Assembly: GCA_013388645.1 (NCBI GenBank) | Contig: JACAEV010000080.1 | Coordinates: forward strand, 1 to 41,980 | Reading direction: 5' to 3' | DNA: 41,980 nucleotides | Source: Syntrophaceae bacterium | GTDB taxonomy: Bacteria; Desulfobacterota; BSN033; UBA1163 | In this document: one piece after another, positions 12,927 to 15,627 of the stretch | Numbering within the stretch: position 1 is the stretch's first letter | Layout: each line of letters begins with the position of its first letter | Translations under genes and position numbers: made by a program | Notes under the pieces: model-generated | Seen by the model: the letters and a program-made list of their open reading frames with translations, nothing else | What the model was told of the DNA's origin: nothing | Databases searched by the model: none

Positions 12927-12999
12927 CTTTTTAATCCTTCACACCTACTTTGCATCTCCTTCTCGGAAGGAAAAGTTGGATGGGGATGGAGGAGGACCG

Positions 13000-13557
13000 A
13001 TGGAAGAGGGAAAAAAATTGACAGAGGAGGAATTTGTTCTTCAGGCGATAAAAAATTTGAGAAAAGATCCATTTCGGGGGATCCACAGCGTTTACAGTGG
13101 GTTTAATGAGGCGTTTAGAAAATATTTTGGAACCAATCCAGTGGAAGCCACTTCGAGATTAGCCGCCGAGGGAAAAATAGAGACCAGACCCTTTAAAGGA
13201 GGAGTAATGCTTTTTCTCCCTGGGGAGGCTCCCAAGAGGCCTTCAGTCGATGAGGTCATCCAACGGATTCTGGAATCCAAGGGGCGTTCTCTCTCCGAGG
13301 AAGAATTTGTTGTCGAGGGGATTAAAAAATTAAGAGGGGAGCCTTATAAGGGAATCCATAGTGTCTTCAGTGGGTTTAATGATGCCTTCCGAAAACATTT
13401 TAACCAAGACCCAGTTGAATTCACAAGTAAAATGGCCTCAGCAGGAAAGATCGAAATCATTCCCTTAAAAAGTGGTAAGGGGGTGATGCTCTACCTCCCG
13501 GGAGAGGGACCGAGAGGTAGAAAAACAGAAGAGGCCTTGAAGAAGATCCTGGGGTGA
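13000..13557 (+). CDS. Unknown protein with two tandem copies of a ~75-residue domain
   Basis: 185 residues built from two homologous units. Both contain an EEEFV-x-x-x-I-K-x-L-R start, then GIHSV(Y/F)SGFN(E/D)AFRK(Y/H)F, then an (A/S)-x-x-G-K-I-E block and a GVML(F/Y)LPGE end. The unit looks like a small alpha/beta winged-helix: helices, then a wing-like strand pair around GVMLFLPGE. I do not recognise a named family. ATG 13000 follows GGAGGAGG at about four bases; TTG 12976 is an alternative. The gene stands alone between a terminator and a convergent neighbour 12 bp away, with phased AT boxes upstream, so it may be regulated separately. A DNA-binding role is inference only. Confidence 0.7.
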   Translation: MEEGKKLTEEEFVLQAIKNLRKDPFRGIHSVYSGFNEAFRKYFGTNPVEATSRLAAEGKIETRPFKGGVMLFLPGEAPKRPSVDEVIQRILESKGRSLSEEEFVVEGIKKLRGEPYKGIHSVFSGFNDAFRKHFNQDPVEFTSKMASAGKIEIIPLKSGKGVMLYLPGEGPRGRKTEEALKKILG

Positions 13558-13569
13558 AAGGAGCTCCTT

Positions 13570-15627
13570 CTATTTCGTTTTGTAGTAGGTATCGATAAAA
13601 GTGATCAGGTCGAAGAAATAGTCCTTGAATCTATCTCCTCGTTCTTGGTCAATTTGGTTGACGAAGAAGTGTCCCCTCTGATTCTTATAATTTAACCCAT
13701 CCGGGATAACAATGATCATCTTCTGCATCTCACCGGTTAGGATGAAACCATCGAGAACGGCTTGCATCCAAGAATTGGTCATTCCTTCCACAGACATATT
13801 GTAGCCCAAAAGAAGGTAGAGAACAGGGTAATAATTCGTACTGCTTCTCGAATATCCGGGTGGAAGGTAGATTCCAAATTTCATGGTTCTGTTATTTAAT
13901 GAAGGGCTTTTGAAGTAGGCGACTCCCATCTGGCTCGGATACTTATAAAGTTCATAGGGATCGGTTCCATAGTCTCCTCCAATAAAATGGTCTGAGATAA
14001 AACTGAAAAGGGTCGTGAAACGGTTAGCGACTACGATCGCCTCTTCAATTCCTTGTTTTGCTTGTTCGAAACTTAATCCGATATTTTCTTTGTCGAACCC
14101 GACATGCCCACCGGGGTAACGGACGTAAACCCTTTTTTCATCGAAGTGCGATATGCTTGGAAAGTCCTTGGGAAAGCCATTTTCAACTCTGACAGAGAGA
14201 CCACGGTTACCCAGAATGTCAACGAAATTTTCAGCGTGGATGTTAAACTGAAATTCATCTTCTGTGCCCGCATCGATGTAGATATTGAGTTTTGTAAGAT
14301 CTGCATCAGGAATGGTTTCTGCACGGATCAATGGGTCTTCAGCAAAATAATTGTTATGATTGGGATTATAAGTGAACACTCCATTACCCTCTCCAAGATC
14401 TCCCGTTCCTGAAACGCCATCCAGACCTGTATCGGAAAAGTACTCCCCTGGATCATATTTTCCATTTCCATTGATATCGATAAAAGGCTCATGGAATTGT
14501 TTTAAGACGGGTTCTCCCCAGTTTCTCTTTCCATTTCCATTGGAATCAAGAGCTAACAAAACTTCTACCCAGTCACCGGGGTCAGGGTCTTCATAGGTGA
14601 TGACAGGCAAATTACCATCTGGATTGAGTATATCTTTAAACCCGTAAAGGGTTGTGGGTATTCTTGCATTCTCAGGAGTAATTCCTGGAGGATAGTAGGT
14701 TGAGAGTGGATTATAATAGACGGGGTTGCCAAAACTGATGGTCAAGTCCTTAAGCATGTCCATGAGAGTATCCCGATTGGGATAAAGGTTCGGATTATCG
14801 TAATCTCCAAGCATATCTACTTCAATAAATTTAAGGAGGTAAGCCATATCGAGGGGACCTCCGAGGGAGGCAATCGTATTAAAAAAGTCTGGGCGACCTA
14901 AACCAATATTCATGGCTCCATAAGCGCCCATGGAGACGCCTCCAATCGCCCTGAATTGAGGGCTTCCTTTACCGATCGGGCCTCTCCACCACCCTGTATC
15001 GTAGGCGCTGAAATCACTCGTCCCATAATTGTTGGTTGCTTTGACATAGTAATAATAAACTTTTACAGCTAAGGCGGTTGTATCATCATAGGTGGTGTTG
15101 GAGGTTGTCCCTAAGGCTGTTTTGGTTCCCCATCGTTGAGTAGCACGATATACTGTATAAGAAGTCGCCCCTGAAGAGGCTGTCCAAGTGACCTGCACCT
15201 TGTTCAAGTAAGTCCCATCGCTGGCCTGGACATTGGTCGGGGGTGAAGGGGGTCCATCGGGGGGAGGGGTTCCCTCTGAACGAAAACCTGTGTCAGAGGC
15301 ACTGAATTTACTCGTTCCATTAGCATTGGTTGCTTTGAGACAGTAATAATAAACCTTTCCAGCCAAGCCAGTTGTGTCATCATAAGTGGTATTGGAGGTT
15401 GTCCCTAAGGCTGTTTTGGTTCCCCATCGTTGAGTAGCACGATATACTGTGTAGGAGGTTGCCCCTGAAGATGCTGTCCAGGTGACCTGCACCTTGTCTG
15501 AGTAAGTCCCATCACTGGCCTGGACATTCGTCGGCGCGGAAGGTTTTTCGGTAGATTGTGCCTCTGCCTCCATGGCAAGATAGAATGAACTGATGACGAT
15601 TAAAATGATAGCAGCTAATTTCTTCAT
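13570..15627 (-). CDS. Secreted FN3-containing esterase/alpha-beta hydrolase with apparently permuted catalytic halves
   Basis: 685 residues. Residues 1-23 are a signal peptide (basic start, hydrophobic core, AEA-Q cleavage). Two nearly identical fibronectin-III-like domains cover about 32-117 and 130-212. Residues 225-260 hold the nucleophile elbow of EstD/feruloyl-esterase-type hydrolases (GGVS232MGAYG, then F..ASLGGPLD). A likely acid is D457 in DAGTEDEF and a likely catalytic His is H508 in YPGGH. Residues 361-372 and 384-396 are DxNGNG calcium-binding-like loops. The part normally N-terminal to the nucleophile (GIYLPPGY, YPVLYLLLG, IIVIPDG, LITFIDTYYKT) comes last, at 583-685. The usual oxyanion HG is LG here. 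The ATG follows AAGGAG. Substrate unknown; probably periplasmic or extracellular. Confidence 0.82.
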   Translation of the reverse strand: MKKLAAIILIVISSFYLAMEAEAQSTEKPSAPTNVQASDGTYSDKVQVTWTASSGATSYTVYRATQRWGTKTALGTTSNTTYDDTTGLAGKVYYYCLKATNANGTSKFSASDTGFRSEGTPPPDGPPSPPTNVQASDGTYLNKVQVTWTASSGATSYTVYRATQRWGTKTALGTTSNTTYDDTTALAVKVYYYYVKATNNYGTSDFSAYDTGWWRGPIGKGSPQFRAIGGVSMGAYGAMNIGLGRPDFFNTIASLGGPLDMAYLLKFIEVDMLGDYDNPNLYPNRDTLMDMLKDLTISFGNPVYYNPLSTYYPPGITPENARIPTTLYGFKDILNPDGNLPVITYEDPDPGDWVEVLLALDSNGNGKRNWGEPVLKQFHEPFIDINGNGKYDPGEYFSDTGLDGVSGTGDLGEGNGVFTYNPNHNNYFAEDPLIRAETIPDADLTKLNIYIDAGTEDEFQFNIHAENFVDILGNRGLSVRVENGFPKDFPSISHFDEKRVYVRYPGGHVGFDKENIGLSFEQAKQGIEEAIVVANRFTTLFSFISDHFIGGDYGTDPYELYKYPSQMGVAYFKSPSLNNRTMKFGIYLPPGYSRSSTNYYPVLYLLLGYNMSVEGMTNSWMQAVLDGFILTGEMQKMIIVIPDGLNYKNQRGHFFVNQIDQERGDRFKDYFFDLITFIDTYYKTK
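14995..15534 (-). repeat. Near-identical tandem DNA copies encoding the two FN3 domains
   Basis: Segments 15289-15534 and 14995-15240 encode the two FN3-like domains and are almost identical at DNA level (for example the shared block around GGTTCCCCATCGTTGAGTAG, at about 15418 and 15121). This points to recent duplication or gene conversion inside the esterase gene. Confidence 0.8.

Follow-up and report, generated by a model that had tools for sequence, protein, structure and literature searches.

The protein encoded by a 685-residue open reading frame in the 41,980-nucleotide stretch of DNA analysed here (the window) is, with high confidence, a secreted serine esterase of the α/β-hydrolase fold that is related by sequence to PF00756/CE1 enzymes and has a circularly permuted chain. 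As the swap is common to related genes in many bacterial genomes, it is real and not an assembly error, and these secreted enzymes form a hitherto undescribed permuted esterase family. Along the window protein, the motifs GGVSMGAYG, YIDAGTEDEF, and YPGGHVG are followed by GIYLPPGY, YPVLYLLLG, IIVIPDG, and the C-terminal DLITFIDTYYKTK, so that the half normally found at the C-terminus comes first, whereas the normally N-terminal half comes last. A first-pass annotation of the sequence had described both halves in this order, with Ser232, Asp457, and His508 as the triad, and the motifs and positions are as it claimed; to this we add that the gene lies on the minus strand, a point omitted there. 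The coordinates of the individual features are collected in the table below, and the protein starts with a signal peptide (MKKLAAIILIVISSFYLAMEAEAQ).

Table. Features of the permuted esterase gene, numbered along the window (β-strands and α-helices are named by our own assignment)
Feature	Position	Strand	Basis or remark
Whole ORF, permuted esterase with N-terminal FN3 domains	13570..15627	minus	685 aa, ATG start
Signal peptide, type I-like, about residues 1-24, MKKLAAIILIVISSFYLAMEAEA	15556..15627	minus	Read from sequence; other members of the family have signal peptides or lipoprotein-type N-termini
FN3 domain 1, residues 30-110	15298..15540	minus	Pfam PF00041; DNA repeat with FN3 domain 2
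FN3 domain 2, about residues 125-208	15004..15255	minus	Two Pfam stretches and DNA repeat
Normally C-terminal half, here first (β5, αC, β6, insertion, β7, αE, β8, αF; residues 217-545)	13993..14979	minus	PDB, Pfam, and profile alignments; model elements
Nucleophile Ser232, GVSMG elbow	14932..14934	minus	Invariant in 17-row alignment
Loop-rich insertion between β6 and β7, about residues 266-440	14308..14832	minus	Family alignment; model pLDDT mostly below 50
Ca-binding-like loop 1, DSNGNGKRNWGE	14512..14547	minus	Sequence; DNA repeat D4
Ca-binding-like loop 2, DINGNGKYDPGE	14443..14478	minus	Sequence; DNA repeat D4; conserved EPFxDxNGNG..GE
Family signature DTGLDGVSGTGDLGEGNG	14380..14433	minus	D, GLDG, D, and E positions invariant in 17-row alignment
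Catalytic acid Asp457, YIDAGTEDEF	14257..14259	minus	Invariant in 17-row alignment; aligned to 8z91 230-299 region
Catalytic His508, YPGGHVG	14104..14106	minus	Invariant in 17-row alignment
Normally N-terminal half, here last (β1, β2, β3, oxyanion loop LLLGY, αA, β4, αB; residues 566-685)	13573..13932	minus	PF00756 positions 3-69; 8z91 residues 3-127; model elements

In a Pfam search, it is the N-terminal part of PF00756 (positions 3-69 of 251) that matches residues 576-651 of the window protein, with a score of 53.1 bits against a gathering cut-off of 22, and all 17 members of the family alignment match this model at E≤0.1. Standard domain annotation hides such permutations, as Pfam's best stretch is this N-terminal piece placed at the protein's C-terminus. 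By sequence, the closest solved structure is the soil-metagenome esterase 8z91 (E 3.8e-31 in a profile search), for which we found no literature. Here, residues 26-127 of 8z91 align to residues 582-684 of the window protein, and residues 132-163 to residues 224-255, while positions 396-524, 7-39, and 241-308 of the 17-row family profile align to 8z91 residues 3-127, 132-164, and 230-299, respectively. Both halves are also similar in sequence to the other PF00756/CE1-type enzymes, namely the feruloyl esterases 7xrt, 5vol, and 1jjf and S-formylglutathione hydrolase/EstD, with which they share the GxSMG elbow, the positions of the aspartate and histidine, and the β1-β4 motifs YLPPxY, YPVLYLL, and DLIPxI. 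In contrast to these enzymes, the permuted family has its halves reversed, a large insertion between β6 and β7, and an oxyanion motif reading LG, GG, or PG instead of HG.

For a direct comparison of the two chain orders, a profile of ten canonical-order esterase domains was scored against 16 family members, both as native and as rotated sequences. In all 16 native proteins, the profile splits into two stretches in reversed order, with positions 131-169 matched near the N-terminus of the catalytic part (i-Evalues of 3e-4 to 6e-7) and positions 11-130 at the C-terminus (2e-7 to 6e-17 for this β1-β4 part); none has the canonical order, in which the β1-β4 half precedes the nucleophile half. The reversed order is thus well above chance. 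Swapping the halves, a check put forward with the first-pass annotation, gave one continuous profile match in 16/16 rotated sequences, with the joint falling between profile positions 126-130 and 131-137. From the position of this joint, the two chain ends, YKTK at the C-terminus and SPQFRAIGG at the opening of the catalytic part, flank one and the same canonical loop, that between αB and β5. The part with the acid and histidine aligns weakly to canonical profiles, and the columns of the GxSxG nucleophile, the Asp, and the His are all invariant in the 17-row alignment.

Structure prediction, which the first-pass annotation had likewise proposed, placed the core strands and helices of both halves in the permuted order, though with moderate overall model quality. 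The AlphaFold2 model of the window protein's catalytic part (474 residues, with an input of 17 sequences) has a mean pLDDT of 62.3 and a pTM of 0.66, with core elements mostly at 80-96, and its elements run β5, αC, β6, insertion, β7, αE, β8, αF, β1, β2, β3, αA, β4, and αB. The same order recurs in a second AlphaFold2 model, made for a member from another class, and the two models together have mean pLDDT values of 62-63 and pTM values of 0.62-0.66. Low-confidence residues lie mostly within the β6-β7 insertion, and the moderate overall quality is due to the insertion not being resolved and to the input of only 17 sequences. The predicted α/β-hydrolase core is therefore ordered β5-β6-β7-β8-β1-β2-β3-β4. 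Alternatively, the permuted halves could pair in trans, in the manner of a split-domain or domain-swapped enzyme, where the fold of one subunit is completed by the C-terminal half of its neighbour. This arrangement is compatible with the sequence, yet we consider it very improbable, as the single-chain models assemble a core from both halves with high local confidence.

The first-pass annotation had named mis-assembly as the main alternative to a natural permutation. Indeed, the assembly of the window genome is a draft in 250 contigs (contamination 4.94%), and the two FN3 domains form a direct repeat with 86% identity over 257 nt of DNA, such that a chimeric contig might be suspected as the source of the swapped order. 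However, the same order is present in 14 other MAGs, and in two more in fragmentary form; these span three classes of the phylum, and their proteins are 34-84% identical. Four of the genomes belong to the same family as the window genome, with 64-84% identity over the catalytic part and two copies in one of the four, and the independent assemblies include UBA2208, K_DeepCast, and RBG_16_49_23. In the two further classes, G296 and eleven genomes from the class of G367 (G367 included) share the swapped order at 34-39% identity, with G466 and G482 having it only as fragments, and the N-termini of these more distant homologues are mostly of the lipoprotein type. Moreover, the homologues L006, L007, and L026 lack FN3 domains and still keep the swapped order, and the window gene is a single open frame in which dN/dS, calculated against the closest relatives, is 0.07-0.13 in both halves. 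Both halves are thus under purifying selection, and with independent homologues sharing the order we rejected mis-assembly, whose probability we regard as negligible. That a PF00756-type esterase underwent a natural circular permutation, as had been proposed, is supported by the sequence, the two structure models, and the conservation of the order in many genomes, though the permutation is not confined to this one gene and instead defines an old family.

The occurrence of this family is patchy, with 5/17 genomes of the window's family carrying a permuted esterase. In a tree of the shared blocks, permuted and canonical proteins split on one branch with full support, which is consistent with a single permutation event, the canonical sample being small at nine sequences. 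A canonical-order esterase family, marked by LLHGYN and by a long insertion ahead of the nucleophile half (L016, L018, L028, L029, L076, and L077), is found in several of the same genomes, and its members were kept out of the tree sample. As a candidate for the unpermuted sister, these LLHGYNFH-type proteins were rejected; they have the canonical order but score below the permuted proteins against the canonical profile. Genome searches covered the window's phylum together with plasmids, phages, and viral contigs, while a wider genome collection was scanned with one protein, a kind of scan that recovers close relatives only. No relatives were found in the viral contigs, the phage records gave only two weak partial matches, both to the β1-β4 half, and the plasmid esterase matches whose ORFs were examined have the canonical order. 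In G469:C27, a second permuted-esterase copy is split over two reading frames (L057 and L059) and is likely frameshifted or mis-sequenced.

The replacement of the oxyanion HG by LG, already pointed out in the first-pass annotation, is confirmed in the window protein, and Leu, Gly, or Pro stands before this glycine throughout the permuted family. This loss of the histidine could mean an inactive pseudoenzyme or a binding protein that has kept the fold. The oxyanion hole in the α/β-hydrolase fold is made with main-chain NH groups, and so the loss of the histidine is tolerable. Given also the invariant Ser, Asp, and His and a dN/dS of about 0.1, we see the pseudoenzyme as a rather remote prospect. 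Esterase activity is predicted for the permuted family, and ester hydrolysis would proceed by the ordinary Ser-His-Asp mechanism (S232-H508-D457).

While the FN3 domains are optional, the loop-rich insertion is constant in the permuted family. Its length is about 175 residues in the window protein and about 175-240 residues across the family, and all members have the conserved EPFxDxNGNG...GE...DxGLDG...D.GEG. Because the spacing of the Asp, Asn, and Gly residues resembles that of Ca2+-binding loops, these loops may well bind Ca2+, and the insertion as a whole would likely shape the entrance to the active site. Among 394 genomes of the phylum, a search with a profile of the insertion region found no canonical-order protein with the same insertion in the ORFs that were read, and the non-family matches were short and weak, spanning some 40-60 positions within the loop region at E-values of 1e-6 to 1e-3.

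A natural permutation of this kind is already known in the superfamily, since in the type 2 extracellular PHA(SCL) depolymerases, the Penicillium funiculosum enzyme among them, the oxyanion region follows the triad on its C-terminal side (PMC2666664). The permuted esterase family is therefore a new instance of permutation, not the first. In the passages matched by a text search of a 2024 survey of α/β hydrolases, permutation is mentioned only for the edge strands β1/β2 (PMC11878206); like the present case, this is a natural rearrangement of strand order, but it affects the edge of the sheet, whereas here the break is mid-sheet, between β4 and β5. Natural circular permutations that cut through the middle of the α/β-hydrolase sheet are rare. 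Among the listed titles and abstracts of open-licence papers on circular permutation (esterase, feruloyl esterase, and hydrolase), we found no description of the permuted esterase family.

The main alternative to an independent permutation event is that the family diverged from within the type 2 depolymerases; it would then share one ancient permutation with them, and its members may hydrolyse polyester. The 2D80 structure is reportedly a circularly permuted variant, and the P. funiculosum PHB depolymerase (2D80/2D81) has the same order of lipase box, Asp, His, and oxyanion region as the window protein. In our Foldseek comparison, 2D81 was the first-ranked match of the second model (298 columns), with 2D80 fifth (240 columns), and 2D81 ranked fourth for the window model (224 columns), these being sequential matches, whereas alignments to canonical feruloyl esterases cover about one half, mostly 80-160 columns. 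However, this fold comparison is only suggestive, as no Foldseek match passed an E-value of 0.001, and the TM-scores were low. Extracellular PHA depolymerases also commonly carry FN3 modules, which we count in favour of a shared ancestry. On the other hand, a profile search in which type 2 depolymerases were represented by 2D80/2D81 alone gave no match to these at E-values up to 10, whereas CE1-type esterases were matched with E-values down to 1e-31. Moreover, the NCBIfam PHA depolymerase models that match weakly are those of type 1 and esterase_phb, and the Asp/Asn/Gly-loop insertion sets the permuted family apart from 2D80/2D81. Unlike type 2 PHA(SCL) depolymerases, the permuted protein ends at αB without a C-terminal linker and has no recognised substrate-binding domain, with Pfam finding FN3-type domains only, and these at the N-terminus. 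We thus consider descent from the type 2 depolymerases fairly unlikely. As its sequence is much closer to the CE1 type, we read the family as a new permuted lineage among the CE1-like esterases that probably arose by an independent event.

Taken further, it is an even call in our judgement whether these proteins constitute an undescribed, widely but patchily distributed group of Ca2+-dependent extracellular esterases with their own permutation from the CE1 type, made at roughly the position in the fold where type 2 PHB depolymerases have theirs. If true, this would be a case of convergent permutation in one fold at one site. In the mechanism that we propose, the chain would have been cut in the loop between helix αB and strand β5, so that the catalytic part runs from β5 and the nucleophile elbow through to αB, and the old C- and N-termini would be joined via a linker after αF. 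The C-terminal half would then supply β1-β4 and the oxyanion loop to one α/β-hydrolase domain, while the FN3 repeats, where present, would serve as a spacer attached to the new N-terminus. The protein would be exported, with members of the second clade probably being lipid-anchored. Since canonical relatives can be identified by sequence and set directly against the permuted enzymes, the cost and benefit of having chain ends near the nucleophile become testable.

Tandem duplication followed by trimming is a plausible origin, as tandem canonical esterase ORFs exist. In Spirosoma and Emticicia plasmids (Bacteroidota), L080 and L081 each carry two canonical esterase domains one after the other in a single ORF, an arrangement that could give rise to a circular permutation, though no intermediate of such a route was found in the phylum genomes, plasmids, phages, or viral contigs. 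In a further tandem esterase ORF, from a Hymenobacter plasmid (L060:1818-3194), the second domain ends soon after the oxyanion motif, possibly owing to a frameshift.

As to the substrate, the enzyme may act on an extracellular carbohydrate ester or a polyester. Carbohydrate esters are suggested by the CE1-like sequence, and a polyester is possible in view of the FN3 modules and of the topology that matches PHB depolymerase. Gene neighbourhoods, which we compared for a functional clue, differ between genomes, and the permuted esterase gene thus appears to stand alone, without conserved neighbours. In G296, 41 bp separate the permuted esterase (L079:11030-13384) from a gene for a fatty acid cis/trans isomerase that has the same orientation. 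Convergent to the window gene, at positions 12976-13557, is a gene for a 193-residue protein without a Pfam match, which consists of two similar repeats of about 90 residues (VYSGFNEAFRKYFGTNPVE and VFSGFNDAFRKHFNQDPVE). Elsewhere in the window genome, a papain-like (C1A-looking) protease (L027:9527-12415 in G000:C176) ends in two FN3 domains that share 70% identity with the esterase's own pair, which suggests that FN3 modules are shuffled between secreted proteins.
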